A stretch of DNA of 64,000 nt from Aphrocallistes beatrix (taxonomy: Eukaryota; Porifera; Hexactinellida; Sceptrulophora; Aphrocallistidae): positions 4,145,104-4,209,103 of the forward strand of contig OY725492.1 of the NCBI GenBank assembly GCA_963281255.1, in the 5' to 3' direction. This document shows positions 25,242 through 56,694 of this stretch, one piece after another. Made by a program: the position numbers and the translations under genes. Each line of letters begins with the position of its first letter. Positions within the stretch are counted from its first letter, which is position 1. The notes under the pieces were generated by a model, which saw nothing but the letters and a program-made list of their open reading frames with translations, searched no databases and was not told where the DNA came from.

Positions 25242-25511
25242 CAGTCAGGGTCGCTTATTGTGAACCACCAGGAGACCAAAAAATATGTTCATAATAGCGA
25301 TACTTCACATTAAGCGAACTTGATTCAATACAAATCCTATCTAAAAAATGAAATTGGGACCAGGAGGTTAGTTCATAATAAACGAATGTTCATATTAAGC
25401 GAACTTGATTCAATACAAATCCTATCTAAAAAATGAAATTGGGACCAGGAGGTTAGTTCATAATAAACGAATGTTCATATTAAGCGGATTCATAATAAGC
25501 GACCCTGACTG
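25242..25511. mobile_element. Pogo-like MITE with internal 85-bp duplication
   Basis: Terminal inverted repeats CAGTCAGGGTCGCTTATT(G/A)TGAA, 23 bp with one mismatch, flanked by TA at 25240-25241 and 25512-25513. An internal unit of 85 bp, starting at the GCGAACTTGATTC motif, is duplicated exactly in tandem (copies begin near 25314 and 25399). No coding capacity. Confidence 0.85.
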
Positions 25512-41213: not shown

Positions 41214-43334
41214 CTATACAGTAGACTCATCGATGAGACAAGAACTGATGTGTGTGTGTTGTTTCTGGAGGAGGCGTCGTTTCCTAACAGGTGCAAGTCG
41301 TGGCGAGATTTCATGAGGATCTTCCCGAATGGATTGCAGCGGTTCCAAGATCGTTGGGAGGGAAGGGCGTGCAGTCGGTTCAGGATATAGCAGCTCAGAC
41401 AAGCTCCCCTCTACCACCTCACTCTCCGATTCACTCTCGTCCTCACTTTCGTCATCATGCGTTTTGCTATATCTCCTCATGTTATCCCGCATTATAAGGA
41501 GAACCTGGATCATCTGCAGAGCTTGTAAAAGCGACGTCTCAATGAGGTCTTCAGTGTTGAATACATCGGCCCGGCTCAACTTCCTATCTCGCCCATGTTT
41601 CAAGTTCTCAATGATCAACTTTCTTTTCACACTCTCCATATTCTCCTTCATCTGTTGGTTGTCGTCTTCAGAGACATAGGTTTTAATGATCATTTCAAGA
41701 TCTCGTTTAAGAATCACCAAACAATGCACAAATCCTTCTGTAATAGCATCTCCGGTGCGCAATCTCACGTCGAAACCTTCCACTCCAGTGAAGCCACCCC
41801 CGAATAATTCCTTGAATCCGAATGACTCCCCTTGCTCTATCGTGGTGGACATTTCTTCACGCCTACTTCCCACATACTCTCTTAATTCCACACCACCTTT
41901 CGTGACAATAAACATTTCCTTGGCTGTCTCCCGGTACTGGTAGATGTACTCGCCGGGGAGGTAGTAGCGGTTCTCCAGTCGAGGGATGAGATAGTTGAAA
42001 AAGCTGTAAGACATTTTCTTGAAGATCTCTGGCTTCTTCAGAATTTCAAAATAACTCTCTTTGAACACGTTCAAGCTGAGCTTTCTAGGAAAGTAAGCCA
42101 AAATTTGTTTTTCAAATACGTGGATTTGGTTGTCGTATCCGTACGCAAAGTATTCAGCCGCTTTTTGCTGTGAAGGATCAGTTGGTGGTATTTTAGAGAT
42201 GTGAAAAATTTGCCTCGCTCTAACAGTCTTGACGCGGAACTGGTTACGTTGCCAGTGCTTTATTCTGAGAGAAGATACGAACACTGCATACACATAAGCC
42301 ATATTTAACGCACCCATAAGATGGCATATGATCATGAACATGTACTGGTAACTGCCCTTAGGCCGCGATTGATTGTGTATGTTAGTGATTATTACAAATC
42401 CCCAGTAGAACGAGAATAAGATAGGGTGAGCCTTGATATCTTTTTCAGGATCGAAACTGGCGAAAATTCCTATTTTCTCTTGCTTCTGAAGTATGAAATA
42501 AGCGAAATATAATGATCCGAACAGGTTAGAGAGAAGCACAATTTGTAGGAGCACTTTGAACTGTCTGAAGGTTTGTGCGAAAGAAAACTTTCGTTCGATT
42601 AAAGAACCGAATTGTATCACTCTTAACATTTTCACGATACGTAGTACACGGAATAGGGGATGACTCAATTTGGTGAAAAAATACTGGAACTCGTGTACAA
42701 ATGGAACTAAAATGGAAACGACATCGACCAAGAAAGAAAAGGTTTTGACATAGCGCTTCACAGTTTCACTTAACACTTCGATTTTATTTCCATCAGACTT
42801 TGAAATAAATTGTATCCGACTTTGACAGAGGAAAATATCTGCTAAGTAGATCAGGTCGCAAAAAATGTCAGCGATATAAAACGCAGGGCTATCATAGAGA
42901 AGTACGTAACCTGTCTCTAAAGTTGAGTTAGTTGAGTTCAGGTAGATATTAAAAAAAGCGAATCGTAAAGGAATCGTCACGAAATTATAGATGGCCGCTA
43001 AGCTAACAATGAGCATAGAAAAGAAGTATATCTGACCATGGTCATCTAATGTGAAGCTGAGCGGAGATTTCCAGTTGTACGGCTTTTCAAAGTGGATTCC
43101 GAGAGTGTTCTCCAAGAATCTCTCTGCCCCCTTCTGATCATACTTCTTTTTCTTCAAAGATGACCACCCGATTTGTCTAGAGTCATTTGTTTCAGATCCC
43201 CCCTCTGTATCAGTATCCTCTGAGACCATCATGTTAGGAGACGGGTAGAAGAGAGAGCTAGTCATGCTCAGTCTCCTCTCAGCTCGATCTGATGAGATCA
43301 AACTGTTGATAGATGAGTTCATTGATGACGTCAT
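41214..43334 (-). CDS. Divergent cyclic-nucleotide-gated/HCN-like channel with altered filter
   Basis: Single exon, 706 aa. Layout follows CNG/HCN channels: S1-S3 (about residues 100-180), an S4-like segment LFRVLRIVKMLRVIQF (about 220-240), S5, a pore segment, S6, a C-linker and a cyclic-nucleotide-binding-like beta-roll (about 455-555; YYLPGEYIYQYRETAKEMFIV). The pore YWGFVIITNIHNQSRP aligns without gaps to the CNG pore, but TIGET of the filter reads NIHNQ, so the Gly and Glu that set cation selectivity are gone. In the phosphate-binding cassette the FGE glutamate is Phe (FGFKEL), while an Arg-Thr pair (RLRTGDAI) remains. Ligand binding and conduction are therefore uncertain. A Ser/Asp/Glu-rich stretch is followed by a disordered C-terminus. 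The open frame is intact, so it is under constraint rather than a pseudogene. Confidence 0.8.
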   Translation of the reverse strand: MTSSMNSSINSLISSDRAERRLSMTSSLFYPSPNMMVSEDTDTEGGSETNDSRQIGWSSLKKKKYDQKGAERFLENTLGIHFEKPYNWKSPLSFTLDDHGQIYFFSMLIVSLAAIYNFVTIPLRFAFFNIYLNSTNSTLETGYVLLYDSPAFYIADIFCDLIYLADIFLCQSRIQFISKSDGNKIEVLSETVKRYVKTFSFLVDVVSILVPFVHEFQYFFTKLSHPLFRVLRIVKMLRVIQFGSLIERKFSFAQTFRQFKVLLQIVLLSNLFGSLYFAYFILQKQEKIGIFASFDPEKDIKAHPILFSFYWGFVIITNIHNQSRPKGSYQYMFMIICHLMGALNMAYVYAVFVSSLRIKHWQRNQFRVKTVRARQIFHISKIPPTDPSQQKAAEYFAYGYDNQIHVFEKQILAYFPRKLSLNVFKESYFEILKKPEIFKKMSYSFFNYLIPRLENRYYLPGEYIYQYRETAKEMFIVTKGGVELREYVGSRREEMSTTIEQGESFGFKELFGGGFTGVEGFDVRLRTGDAITEGFVHCLVILKRDLEMIIKTYVSEDDNQQMKENMESVKRKLIIENLKHGRDRKLSRADVFNTEDLIETSLLQALQMIQVLLIMRDNMRRYSKTHDDESEDESESESEVVEGSLSELLYPEPTARPSLPTILEPLQSIREDPHEISPRLAPVRKRRLLQKQHTHISSCLIDESTV

Positions 43335-44027: not shown

Positions 44028-44228
44028 TATACCATGATTTACCTCTTCATTCAATCTCATGATCCTTATCGCACACCAAATCATTATACCTGCAACCATC
44101 ATTATAATTAGTTATTTTTAGTTGTCACATGAGAACCTAGAATAAATCACAGGGCATTTCTTACAATTTAGTACAACTTAACACTAATAGTACAACTTAC
44201 ACAATTAAACACACAATTACTAGTAATC

Positions 44229-44470
44229 CAATTCAAGGAAATATTATCATGAGATTAGAACAATTGTTGCATCCAGGACATTTTCTTACCATTTGTCTTA
44301 GAAATAGTACAACTAAACACGCAATCAATTCAATTCAAGGAAATATTATCATGAGATTAGAACAATTGTTGCATCCAGGACATTTTCTTACCATTTGTCT
44401 TAGAAATAGTACAACTAAACACGCAATCAATTCAATTCAAGGAAATATTATCATGAGATTAGAACAATTG
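44229..44470 (+). repeat. 102-bp tandem repeat (two full copies plus a partial)
   Basis: Unit begins CAATTCAAGGAAATATTATC and recurs at 44229, 44331 and 44433, period 102 bp (34 codons). It stays open in one frame, so a repetitive peptide could be read, but the frame has no recognisable domain and ends at 44527. It lies just upstream of the first ML-domain gene. Confidence 0.85.
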
Positions 44471-44624
44471 TTGAATCAGTTCAAATTGTTTAGTGAATTC
44501 AACCAAATGCTAATTAAGCAACTGTGAAACCTTAAGAGATGTGTCATATTGTCTGAACAATATGAGTAAATTGTATATATAGGATGAAACTCAAACGATG
44601 TTTATTCTTGGTAATAATAACAAA

Positions 44625-45170: not shown

Positions 45171-45389
45171 TATCATCTGTACGCTCATTCATGTGGTTGC
45201 TGTGCATGTAGGATACCCTATTAATGAGTGTCTTGAAAATAATTGATAAATAAATGTATCTGTTATCACTCTGTTATGATGTCATCATTACGCATTAAAA
45301 TTGACAAATTTTGTGATTTTTCGAGTGATATCGACTATAACAGTAAGACAGAGATGTTATCTACCTTATAATTAATCAATGTGAGCCTA

Positions 45390-45460
45390 GGTGTCCAAAG
45401 GACGCTTCTAGCGGACACAAAGTGTCCTCAGCCGCACAGCGCAAGCAAGCGATGTGCGAT
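45390..45460 (+). repeat. GC-rich dispersed module, copy C
   Basis: Contains GCGGACACAAAGTGTCCTCA followed by GCCGCACAGCGCAAGCAAGC, closely matching the module at 54840-54920. Isolated here without the 5' part of the element. Confidence 0.6.
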
Positions 45461-45695
45461 TGTTAGTATGAAGACGTGTGGCAGATATCAGATATGTTCT
45501 CTATTTCCCTAGATTTGAAAGAAAATCCTTATATTCTATTCACTTTAATAGTTTTATTCATTAACTGTAGCTACATTCTCAGGAATGTTCTTGCGATTCT
45601 TAAAGCAGATTATTCTTATTCCAAAAGCGATTGGTGGGGACAAAAATTGACTGGAAACCTGGATAGTTGGTCGTATGAATTTCAACTATATACTA

Positions 45696-46965
45696 CAGGG
45701 TGCGCCAAAAAAATTGAGACATTTTTTTTCCATATTTTTGCATTATATTTTATTTGATAAAAGGAAGATTCCAGTATTATGTTTATATATCATTACTTTG
45801 TCATAATTATTTATTAAAAAATTAGCATAGTTAAAAATGAACGAATTAGAGAAACGCAAAATGGTAGAATCGCTATACAAAAGTGGTAAAAGTGCATCAG
45901 AAATATTCACTCTTTTAAAACATGAAAATATATCTGTGCTACAATATATCGTGCTGTTAAAAGGCTTCAGTAGGCATAAGTATGTCTAGACAGGAAGGAT
46001 CTGGCAGAAAAGTCAAATATCAGGCAAAAATAGCCAAAAAAAAGATAGCTGATCGTCTTAGACGTAATCCAGCTCAATCAATCAGGAAAATTGCAAGATA
46101 AATAAATATTCCTGCAACCAGTGCCAGAAATATTCTGAAAAGAGATTTAAAATTGACTCCAAGAAAAAAGGATTGCAAACAAGCTCTCAATTCTCCCCAA
46201 AAGAAGAAATGGCGAACAAGGTCATTGAAACTCTACCGTGGACTCGCAGGGGACGCATACCGGCGAGTACTCTTTAGTGACGAGAAAAACTTTTACTTAG
46301 ATCAACCTCTAAACCGCCAAAACGACAGGGTATACATTCGAAAGGGACAGAAGAAGCCCCTGAATACAAAAACTGTAGTTGAAAAAAGAAAATTCCCTCC
46401 AAAAATAATGGTTTGGGCTGGTATTGCGCACAATTTGAAAACCACCTTGTTTTTCATCGAAAAAGGCTCAACTCTAAACGCAAACAAAAATAAATACAAA
46501 AATAACATTTTAAGGGACATCGTAGTTCCATTCTGTCGTAAGAACAAGTTAATGTATCAGCAAGATGGAGCTCCTTGTCATACTGCTAAAATTTGCTCGG
46601 ATTATCTTAAATCTGAAAATATCGAATTTTGGGACAAGAACGACTGGCCACCAAATTCCCCAGACCTCAATCCTCTTGATTATGGGATATGGGGTATTCT
46701 CGATGCTGAGGTCTACAGAAAACCCCCGAAAAGTTTGGAAGCGTTGAAGCGAAGGATTCAGCAGACTTGGGATCAGCTTCAAATTACCATTGTTAATAAC
46801 TGTATTGATTCGTTTAAGAAGCGCCTTAGAAAATGTGTAGAGATGCTAAAGGAACTCATTTTGAATAAAATGTGAAGATGAATGCATTGTTATGACTAAG
46901 ATTCACATAAAATTCTAGTTTTTGCATCGCTTTGTGTTTTGTCTCAATTTTTTTGGCGTACCCTG
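45696..46965 (+). mobile_element. mariner-type (DD37D, maT-like) transposon relic
   Basis: Terminal inverted repeats of 26 bp (CAGGGTGCGCCAAAAAAATT ... reversed on the right, one mismatch). TA precedes the left end; the right flank reads TTTA, so the target duplication is imperfect. About 1.27 kb, full length for the group, inserted between ML-domain genes 1 and 2. Confidence 0.9.
45838..46875 (+). pseudogene. DD37D transposase, disrupted
   Basis: The helix-turn-helix N-terminus starts at 45838 (MNELEKRKMVESLYKSGKSA). A frameshift near 45985 and an in-frame TAA near 46098 interrupt it. From 46153 the catalytic part is open: FSDEKNF (first Asp), YQQDGAPCHT (second Asp) and SPDLNPLDYGIW, whose last Asp is 37 residues after the second. 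This DD37D spacing marks the maT group rather than Tc1 (DD34E) or mariner proper (DD34D). The N-terminal lesions make it inactive. Confidence 0.88.
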
Positions 46966-54100: not shown

Positions 54101-56694
54101 ACTTCCGAGTGATGCTCACCTTCGTGGAGTTCTACATCAACCTTATCGGGTTCGTAAACTTCCACCTGTACCAGAAACTTAACCTGACCTACCCGCCTAA
54201 AATCCCGGACCGTATGGCGGCACCGCCACACCTACACATCCACAAGGCCCAGAACTATCTGTTCAAGCCGGATAGGTACGATACCCTAGACCGACTCAAC
54301 TCTCTCAACCACTCCATAGAGGCTGCAGGTACTGAGCTAGCAGGACGATATCTTATATATTAAAACTCTAGGATTTTTTGTTTGTTTGTTTGTTTGTTTG
54401 TCCGAATTGATTGAAGAATTGGCAAGTCGTAGAGATATGAAAATTGGCATGTAGGTGTCAAATGATGAATCTAGGATTGAGTTCGAAGATCTAAGCGAAA
54501 TTTTCACATCTCTGCAAAAAAATGGAAAACAATTTTCACACCTTTTCTATACAAAATAAATGACTTACACTATCACAATAGAGATCATTGTACGACACTA
54601 CAATAGATCGTTATGGTTAATAATACTCGTACTTCAAGCCACAACTTATGTTTGATATCTTAAATGTATTAAGTTACAAAAATGGACTAGAGACTAGCTT
54701 CCAACGGTTGACATGGGGTTTTTAGTGCTGTAGATTTCGAATATTATATTTTCGGATCCATATGAGAAATTATTCGTCGAACTTTGTTTACAATATTTAT
54801 ATAAAGGAAAAATTCCAAAATATGTTAGATTGAGTGACTCCAGGCGCCCGCAGGGCTACTCTGCGGACACACAGTGTCCGCAAGCCGCGCAGCGCAAGCA
54901 AGCGAAGCGTGCTTGTAAGATATAATAATTGAATAATAATTATATAATAATTATATGCGCAAACAATGCACCGCATTAAAAAGGCAGACATTTAAAATTA
55001 TATAATAATTATATAATTTTAAATGTCTGCCTTTTTAATGCGGTGCATTGTTTGCGCGTTAAATAACGCACTTAAATACAGGACGATACCGTAGTTAGTA
55101 ATTCTATGGTGTGGATATTGATTGATACGGACATATGCGTACAGGTATGGATGCGGATCGAGAGGATGTGGAGGATGAGCTAGACCCAGAACTGATGTCA
55201 GAGGACGAACTGAGCGAGGATGAAGCGGCGCTGAAAGAAGCGAGGAAGAGGGAAGAGAGACTGACTCAAGCACAGAAGGAACTCTTCAAGGACTGCTTCT
55301 TCTACCTGGACAGAGAGGTGTCTAAGTCCCCTCTGGTGTTCTGCATCCGGAGCTGTGGGGGCAGCGCTACTTGGGACGGAGACACGCGGTACAACATCGA
55401 GGTGTCAGACGGAGACATAACCCACCACGTGGTGGACAGGAGCGGCCAGCCCAAGCACAGATTCCTACTCAGAGAGTACGTCCAGCCGCAGTGGGTGTTC
55501 GATAGCGTCAACTGCCGCAGACGCCTCCCCTTCGAGGGGTACAGACCGGGGGACGATCTGCCGCCGCACCTGTCCCCCTTCATGCAGGAGAAGGAAGGAG
55601 ACTACATCCCGCCTGAAAGGTTGGAACTGATTCGGTACGAGAGAGAGATGGAGGAGAATGAAAATTCAGATGATTCTCTTGAAGATGAGAAATCTGGATC
55701 CGACCAATCAGCTGACGAGATAGATAATATTAGGCAGTCAGCTGACGAGATAGAGAATATTAGGCAGTCAGCTGACGAGACTGTGCCAGGGGATGACGCG
55801 CAGAAAAGCGCGAAGAAGAAAGCGAAGAGGAAGCGGGGTTTGCGCGTGGGAGAGGTGGTGCAGGGACAGGTGGAGGTGAGCAGACAGGACGAGAGTGTGG
55901 AGGAGGACAAACTGCGGGCAATGCTGCTGACGAAAAAGAAACGTAAATTGTACGACAAACTGCGAGGCCGAGACAAGAAGCGAAGCAGCCGGATTAACAA
56001 ACTGAGAGAGCGGCGGAAGCAGATCGATAGGAAGACATCCCTCGCAGTCAAGGCTGCCATGAATAACTACTAGTTAGTGTAACCGTAGATGTTAGATTAA
56101 ATTCCATAATAAATATAATTGGACACGAAGTTATGGGTAGAAGATTAAAACATAGCAGGTTTCACCAAAAATAATGAAGGATGTTAGATTCTACAACTTT
56201 TTGACTTTATCCAAATATATAAATAAACCTAACTCACCAGGAAATCGAGTACTCCACAGGAGTTCTAGCCTACACTTGTCCAACACCTCGTAACAGAGGA
56301 CAGCGGACTCGTGCCCCACCCCAGTCACGCACACCCTCGCTCCATCTGACCGCCAGACCACGTATCGGGTATCCATGGTGTGTGGCATGCGCACACTATG
56401 CAGTCGCTTGTAATTAGTGTCCCAAAGTGTCACGCTCCCGTCGAACCCTACCGTGACACATCTCGTGTGGCACGCACTGAGCACGTGCGCGGCCACCAGG
56501 GACTCGTGTGCTTGCTGCCGCCACACTTGAGTCCCGGCGTCAACGTCCCACCTGACTACGAACATGCCGGAAGGAATGTCAAAGCAGTGTTTATTTTTGG
56601 AGGATAGTTCGGCGTCGAAACCGGAGCAGTAGCGAGGCGATCCGATCCCGTAGTTCTGGATTGGAGTCATAATCTTCCGAATACTCTCAGCCAT
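51188..56694 (-). CDS. WD40-repeat protein, family not assigned
   Basis: Four exons on the minus strand join in phase: 56238-56694, 52811-53017, 51859-52553 and 51188-51742, about 637 aa. Multiple WD40 blades are visible, e.g. VTVGFDGSVTLWDTNYKR, IVAGDMTGRLCVWRDQS, GEVWSVCWSPDDEKLVTASE followed by DRSVRVWNHN, and LLASCSDDRTIVV. It probably forms one or two beta-propellers; no other domain was seen. I could not match it to a specific WD protein. The first intron (3.2 kb) encloses the whole PES1 gene on the opposite strand. The second exon acceptor (gctag|GTAGAG) is chosen because it keeps phase. The stop is 24 bp from that of HAUS7. Confidence 0.78.
52600..52700 (-). repeat. Fragment of a dispersed repeat shared with 43600
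   Basis: Contains GCCTCCAAAGGGTGCTT followed by a tract resembling the reverse of 43570-43625. It lies in an intron of the WD40 gene. Ends not defined. Confidence 0.45.
53098..53420 (-). mobile_element. Pogo-like MITE with an internal satellite
   Basis: The left end reads CAGTAGAAACCG and the right end reversed reads CAGCCGAGACCGGTTTTTTC. The body between 53130 and 53215 is the reverse of 24930-25015 (AATATAGATTTGGAATTTTT). A 31-bp tandem array sits inside. Located in the first intron of the WD40 gene, just upstream of PES1. Confidence 0.7.
53240..53385 (+). repeat. 31-bp tandem array
   Basis: Unit based on CCCGTAAATTAGGCATCTTA plus ACCCGTCCCGT, period 31 bp (AGGCATCTTA at 53278, 53309, 53340), about three and a half copies. 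It is bounded by inverted GGCATGCCTAATTT/TAAATTAGGCATGCC. Ends about 80 bp before the PES1 start codon. Confidence 0.85.
53467..56073 (+). CDS. PES1: Pescadillo, ribosome biogenesis and cell-cycle factor
   Basis: Nucleolar scaffold of the PeBoW complex (PES1-BOP1-WDR12), required for 28S/5.8S rRNA maturation. Two exons, 53467-54328 and 55145-56073 (phase 1), about 596 aa. Pescadillo N domain: FRKLCILKGIYPREPRKKKK, DIQYLSHESIIDKFREFRIY, ARAxG-type and WVVPHEFTTRRPADVDFRVM. The BRCT domain (about residues 330-420) has VFCIRSCGGSATWDGDTRYN and YVQPQWVFDSVNCRR. After it come acidic and Lys-rich stretches, including a 10-residue repeat (QSADEIENIR), and a basic C-terminus. Exon 1 is markedly G/C-ending, while the second part of exon 2 is not. 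The gene lies wholly inside the first intron of the minus-strand WD40 gene. Confidence 0.95.
54351..54920 (+). mobile_element. Helitron-like dispersed repeat, copy 3 (PES1 intron)
   Basis: Starts TCTTATATATTAAAAC after an A, followed by a (TTTG)n microsatellite and TCCGAATTGATTGAAGAATT. Ends with the GC-rich module GCGCAAGCAAGCGAAGCG and a small hairpin AAGCGTGCTT. It is the most complete copy, with 5' and 3' modules in the same orientation. It begins 22 bp after the PES1 donor. Confidence 0.6.
54957..55057. repeat. Perfect 48-bp inverted repeat (101-bp hairpin)
   Basis: Arms 54957-55004 and 55010-55057 are exact reverse complements around a 5-base centre (ATAAT). The outer part is GCGCAAACAATGCACCGCAT and the inner part AT-rich. 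Adjacent to the Helitron-like repeat inside the PES1 intron; no target duplication was identified. Confidence 0.92.
55707..55786 (+). repeat. 30-bp in-frame tandem repeat in PES1
   Basis: GCTGACGAGATAGA(T/G)AATAT units begin at 55711, 55741 and 55771, period 30 bp. They encode SADEI(D/E)NIRQ repeats in the acidic linker after the BRCT domain, a likely length-variable region. Confidence 0.85.

Follow-up and report, generated by a model that had tools for sequence, protein, structure and literature searches.

What kind of subunit is encoded by a cyclic-nucleotide-gated (CNG) channel gene of the glass sponge Aphrocallistes beatrix whose selectivity filter has been rewritten? The gene, here called P0001, lies in the window, the whole 64,000-nucleotide stretch of DNA that was analysed. 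The translation of the minus strand runs for 706 codons from an ATG with zero internal stops. The plus strand at 41214-43334 contains many stops in the frame translated. In a phmmer search against PDB, the similarity of the protein to CNG channels extends from S1 across the cyclic nucleotide-binding domain (CNBD). The top match is CNGB3 (E 1.6e-28, 102.7 bits, residues 96-602), CNGA1 reaches 101.5 bits, and animal CNG chains fill the first 19 places among the best 60 matches listed. The features of P0001 are as follows.

41214..43334, minus strand: CNG-type channel subunit gene, single exon, 706 aa, intact.
42585..43049, minus strand: S1-S4 sensor-like domain, residues ~96-250, limits approximate, from alignment to CNGB3 and CNGA1.
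42807..42824, minus strand: QSRIQF, residues 171-176, resembling QPRLQF/QTRLQF of CNGB in the alignment.
42621..42650, minus strand: S4 charges R229, R232, K235 and R238, in columns invariant among four proteins aligned.
42369..42419, minus strand: pore helix and filter LFSFYWGFVIITNIHNQ, residues 306-322, 16 of 17 identical to the paralogue.
42372..42383, minus strand: filter N318-I319-H320-N321, replacing TIGE/TIGG by alignment columns.
42252..42344, minus strand: S6, residues 331-361, with hinge Gly341, Met345/Tyr349, Val353 and Arg357.
42015..42251, minus strand: C-linker, residues 362-440, limits approximate, from alignment.
41679..41969, minus strand: CNBD, residues 456-552 (PF00027, 33.7 bits, cut-off 27.5).
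41814..41816, minus strand: Phe507 at the position of the phosphate-binding-cassette Glu, from alignment.
41214..41678, minus strand: C-terminal tail without leucine-zipper-like heptads.

The Pfam Ion_trans profile (PF00520) has no match in P0001 or in its paralogue P0002, and the CNBD is recognised in both, with PF00027 above cut-off in P0001. Ion_trans also misses P0005, a CNGA-like protein of the same genome, so its absence is not peculiar to the two paralogues. NCBIfam returned nothing useful.

The pore was aligned with those of human CNGB1, CNGB3, CNGA2 and CNGA3, bovine CNGA1 and the channels of this genome. Relative to the vertebrate CNGs, P0001 is free of gaps from the pore helix to the end of S6. 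The columns that hold T407-I408-G409-G410 in CNGB3 and T-I-G-E in CNGA hold N-I-H-N in P0001. The earlier note had described an intact 706-codon frame, a gap-free pore with NIHNQ in place of TIGET and a Phe for the conserved cassette Glu, and all of these are confirmed here, the last at residue 507. The four highly conserved filter residues of CNG channels are given in PMC10761061 as TIGE in CNGA, TVGD in human CNGA4 and TIGG in CNGB. The N-I-H-N filter, present in both P0001 and P0002, is none of these. As the filter Glu is also missing from vertebrate CNGB (PMC10761061), losing Glu alone is nothing new. What sets P0001 apart is that the filter Thr and Gly are gone as well as the Glu. No CNG subunit with an NIHN filter was noticed in open-licence PMC titles and abstract starts, among the matches listed.

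The remaining pore positions are compared by the roles described in PMC10761061, which also covers TIGE/TIGG and 3:1 assembly. At the cavity-gate positions, P0001 has Met and Tyr and P0002 has Met and Phe, unlike CNGA and CNGB. The arginine-gate column holds Val353 in P0001, and an Arg lies four residues further in both paralogues. The corresponding residue of CNGB3, R442, is Gln in some animals (PMC10761061). The pore-helix basic residue of CNGB (R403/K841) is Val in both P0001 and P0002. The S6 hinge Gly is kept in P0001.

At the cassette Glu position, P0002 has Tyr, P0003 has Met, P0004 has Ile and P0005 has Leu. The four-repeat CNGK channel of this genome keeps the Glu in repeats 1-3 and has Phe in repeat 4. 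Judged by these residues, the loss of the cassette Glu belongs to this animal's CNG set, not to P0001 in particular. All three CNGA-like genes also lack it, so Phe507 does not point to a special sensor. None of the five single-repeat proteins has lost the second cassette Arg; the next residue is Thr or Ser in four of them (Thr in P0001) and Glu in P0005. With this Arg kept, the CNBD of P0001 may bind nucleotide.

The genome searched (100,537,919 bases in 28 contigs) contains a second NIHN gene, P0002, on contig C1. The two proteins are 41% identical over residues 60-634 (38-44% depending on the span), with 257 identical residues in 674 aligned codons. Silent sites between the two genes are saturated, so a dN/dS number is unusable and proportions are used instead. 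The proportion of replacement differences (pN) is 0.04 in the pore helix and filter vs 0.44 across all 674 aligned codons. The TNIHNQ stretch is identical in both proteins and is encoded by different codons at five of six positions (ACT AAC ATA CAC AAT CAA vs ACG AAT ATC CAT AAC CAA). Across residues 306-322, 15 of the identical residues have synonymous codons available, and 13 of these are encoded differently in the two genes. The longest identical run, FSFYWGFVIITNIHNQ (16 residues), is equalled in length by 18 of 20000 shuffles of the core identity pattern. Identity between the paralogues is 94% in the pore helix and filter, 71% in S6 and 40% in the CNBD. The NIHN filter is ancient and is maintained by strong purifying selection, which is most intense at the pore; for practical purposes, the codon and pN pattern excludes an error or a dying gene. 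That selection has kept the protein had been argued from the open frame, and it is better supported by the silent and replacement differences to P0002. The filter has stayed constant despite divergence beyond what silent sites can register. It offers a natural experiment on the requirements of a CNG filter, in which evolution built another filter and then held it.

In the ~10-kb flanks of P0002, no gene is shared with the window and only short repeat-like matches are present. Short stretches of the window at ~45270-45478, 54847-54933 and 25242-25476 recur in the P0002 flanks (L044, L045) and are probably dispersed repeats. The filter pattern has three matches in the genome and one in a backwards control, and two of the three are P0001 and P0002. 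The third, on contig C13, lies among stops near what we take to be a hAT-type transposase, and is regarded as a chance match. In prokaryote and viral contigs, which contain no animals, 130 and 157 stretches match the peptide pattern, respectively, and none is a relative. The DNA pattern of the filter region has 0 matches in either set.

The genome contains at least six CNG-family genes; as only the best candidates were scored, and the genome has 25 CNBD matches, there may be further channels. P0001 and P0002, used as protein queries, return nine matches each, in these six genes. Besides the NIHN pair, the set found comprises three CNGA-like genes (P0003-P0005) and one four-repeat CNGK gene. 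P0003 and P0004 are in tandem on C10, and P0005 is on C16.

L011:2190-3989 and L011:4239-6233 (contig C10), minus strand: tandem CNGA-like pair.
L010:1519-8118 (contig C1, ~6.833-6.840 Mb): four-repeat CNGK-type channel, 2199 aa, in one open frame.

The filters are TIAE in P0003, TIGE in P0004 and TIGE in P0005. The first gene of the tandem pair combines its TIAE filter (Gly to Ala) with an Ala at the S6 hinge Gly. P0004 scores 332 bits against CNGA3, in a match that continues past the CNBD into the tail, and 192 bits against CNGB3. By a home-made heptad score, shuffled tails score as well as the real one in 231/300 cases for P0001, 78/300 for P0002 and 6, 1 and 1/300 for P0003, P0004 and P0005, respectively. 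A zipper domain is absent from the Pfam matches of P0003-P0005 at E 0.1. The K+-type filters of CNGK repeats 1-4 are TSTGFGD, TSTGFGD, TSTVGYGD and TSTGYGD. P0001 and CNGK share the CNBD-channel superfamily. P0001 itself is not a CNGK channel, as it has a single repeat, NIHN and no GYG/GFG, and the genome's CNGK is a separate gene. An HCN, KCNH or plant K+ channel is also rejected (no GYG/GFG; the best of them, AKT1, at 37.3 vs 102.7 bits for CNGB3).

On balance we favour, with some reserve, a reading of P0001 as a CNGB-like modulatory subunit (beta type) in a heteromeric cation channel gated by cyclic nucleotides. P0001 resembles CNGB1 and CNGB3 in its alignment from S1 to the CNBD, in the absence of a zipper-like tail and of a filter Glu, in an S2-S3 insertion and in being nearest to them in the tree. 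It differs from them in having NIHN rather than TIGG, in lacking the arginine gate and the basic pore-helix residue and in the replacement of the cassette Glu. By the absence of TIGG, arginine gate and basic residue, the NIHN pair are not strict members of CNGB. P0001 resembles CNGA1-3 in architecture, in the second cassette Arg and in similar match scores, but has neither TIGE nor a zipper-like tail, and a tree grouping with vertebrate CNGA is rejected. Among the three functions that the earlier note had offered, the modulatory subunit thus fits best, given the absence of a zipper tail, a non-decisive grouping with CNGB and the lack of the filter Glu in CNGB itself; new selectivity and a non-conducting sensor keep lower probabilities. 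A CNGB-type gene beside CNGA also has a parallel, by presence alone, in the sponge Amphimedon queenslandica, for which both CNGA and CNGB are reported (PMC9803222).

The proposed mechanism follows the precedent of CNGB, which does not function by itself and whose 3:1 assembly is mediated by the CNGA zipper (PMC10761061). A core trimer would be built from the zipper-bearing P0003-P0005, with the fourth place taken by a single NIHN subunit, either P0001 or P0002. This subunit would set uncharged Asn and His where the others have Glu and Gly (or Ala), which would break the ring of filter carboxylates. A broken ring would be expected to bind Ca2+ more weakly and to be less blocked by it, and permeation in the heteromer would be altered. 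The 3:1 assembly and the changes in Ca2+ block and permeation are all drawn from the CNGB precedent. His320 may add proton or metal sensitivity, perhaps a pH response. As a homomer, the NIHN subunit would probably be silent.

A bolder claim is conceivable though rather unlikely. The pair may represent a new class of CNG subunit, with at least two ancient copies and an Asn/His filter that selects ions or protons in its own way; the host animal may conduct action potentials in syncytial tissue, with no neurons involved. Glass sponges are described as coordinating the arrest of their feeding currents with action potentials (PMC10280926).

It is unlikely that P0001 is a non-conducting pseudochannel, acting either as a membrane sensor of cyclic nucleotides or as a subunit that silences any channel into which it is built. 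The replacement of the filter Thr, Gly and Glu positions, two cavity-gate residues unlike those of CNGA and CNGB and an S5-pore linker that lacks the W-V-Y present in the vertebrate CNGA and CNGB sequences used are all consistent with such a protein. However, the pore helix with the filter, followed by S6, is the part best kept between the paralogues, ahead of the CNBD. This is unexpected if the pore lining had ceased to matter.

That the new filter is so extremely well conserved in two old paralogues would suit a self-conducting channel whose Asn/His filter confers a new selectivity. In adult Amphimedon, the cell types with the highest expression of CNGA and of CNGB are reported not to overlap, and homotetramers of CNGB are put forward by the authors as a possibility (PMC9803222). 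In the larva, the two are reported as co-expressed in several cell types (PMC9803222). A self-conducting P0001 is nevertheless distinctly unlikely. Vertebrate CNGB does not work by itself (PMC10761061), and CNGA-like partners for a heteromer are present in this genome. Among the CNGs compared, the only filter without Gly besides those of the NIHN pair is that of P0003, which has Ala. We know of no CNG channel that conducts with His at the filter Gly position.

In the tree that includes the CNGK repeats, P0001 and P0002 are split from the rest together with human CNGB at 92.2/86 (SH-aLRT/UFBoot), and in the tree without CNGK this group has 96.1/94; the only two CNGB references in these trees are both human. 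In the approximately unbiased (AU) test with CNGK included, the p-values are 0.874 for a position with CNGB, 0.253 for a position outside CNGA and CNGB, 0.0503 with the genome's own CNGA-like genes, 0.035 with vertebrate CNGA and 0.026 with all CNGA. Without CNGK, they are 0.93 with CNGB, 0.081 with the own CNGA-like genes and 0.005 with vertebrate CNGA; in gap-free columns, they are 0.933, 0.080 and 0.004. A grouping with vertebrate CNGA is rejected in all three tests (p-AU 0.035, 0.005 and 0.004). The branch to the NIHN pair is very long (1.4-1.7). The pair thus adjoins vertebrate CNGB in the trees, not decisively, with two other placements unrejected.

A working rule for CNGB requires that the best human match is a CNGB and that a CNBD is present (PMC9803222). 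Among PDB chains, the best match of P0001 is CNGB3, barely ahead of CNGA1. The best PDB matches of P0002 are CNGA3 (138.4 bits) and human CNGA1, ahead of CNGB1 (126.1) and CNGB3. A profile of P0001 and P0002 scores 145.3 bits against CNGB3 vs 142.5 against CNGA3. Identity of the pair is 23-26% to human CNGB, 23-25% to vertebrate CNGA and 21-23% to the own CNGA-like proteins, and does not discriminate between CNGB and CNGA. The one-residue insertion of CNGB over CNGA at S2-S3, with QxRxQ, is present in P0001; this marker is taken from the two human CNGBs used and is not a published definition. We conclude that the NIHN subunit probably works like CNGB and derives from it, but lacks three of the CNGB hallmarks.

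It is very improbable that the pair instead branched off, within this lineage, from the CNGA-like genes of the same genome. This origin is unrejected at 5% (p-AU 0.0503, 0.081 and 0.080), and both groups lack the cassette Glu. However, its likelihood is lower in all three tests (deltaL 13.8, 8.7 and 8.8), identity to the own CNGA-like proteins is below that to human CNGB, and the pair has no zipper-like tail and a CNGB-like insertion is present. A sequencing error or pseudogene, for which nothing speaks beyond the oddity of the filter, can be dismissed, as two loci on different contigs carry the same filter in different codons and both frames are intact.

The wider genome can be compared with those of other glass sponges. 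For Oopsacas minuta, PMC10280926 reports no Nav gene, no obvious Kv gene and the presence of CNG/HCN channels, and treats the K+ channels that end the action potential as an open question. In a glass sponge, CNGK is a candidate for the K+ conductance that ends the action potential; a four-repeat CNGK is also reported for the sponge Amphimedon (PMC4749565). Wnt, Dishevelled and innexin families have no matches in the genome of A. beatrix, but the control genomes are also without matches, so absence is not proven. The same source describes O. minuta as without Wnt and Dishevelled, with TGF-beta components kept, and innexins as missing from it and likewise from other sponges (PMC10280926). Aphrocallistes vastus is reported to be without Wnts and to have many single-exon genes, and the genomes of O. 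minuta and A. vastus are given as 61 and 80 Mb (PMC10282587). The genome of A. beatrix is small and contains five TGF-beta matches and several long single-exon frames, a content that fits a glass sponge.

Upstream of P0001, a 102-bp tandem repeat is present at 44225-44477 of the window, with 2.5 copies and 98% matches. An open frame with a DDE_3 transposase domain, presumably mariner-like, lies at 46153-46875, ~2.8 kb upstream of the gene.
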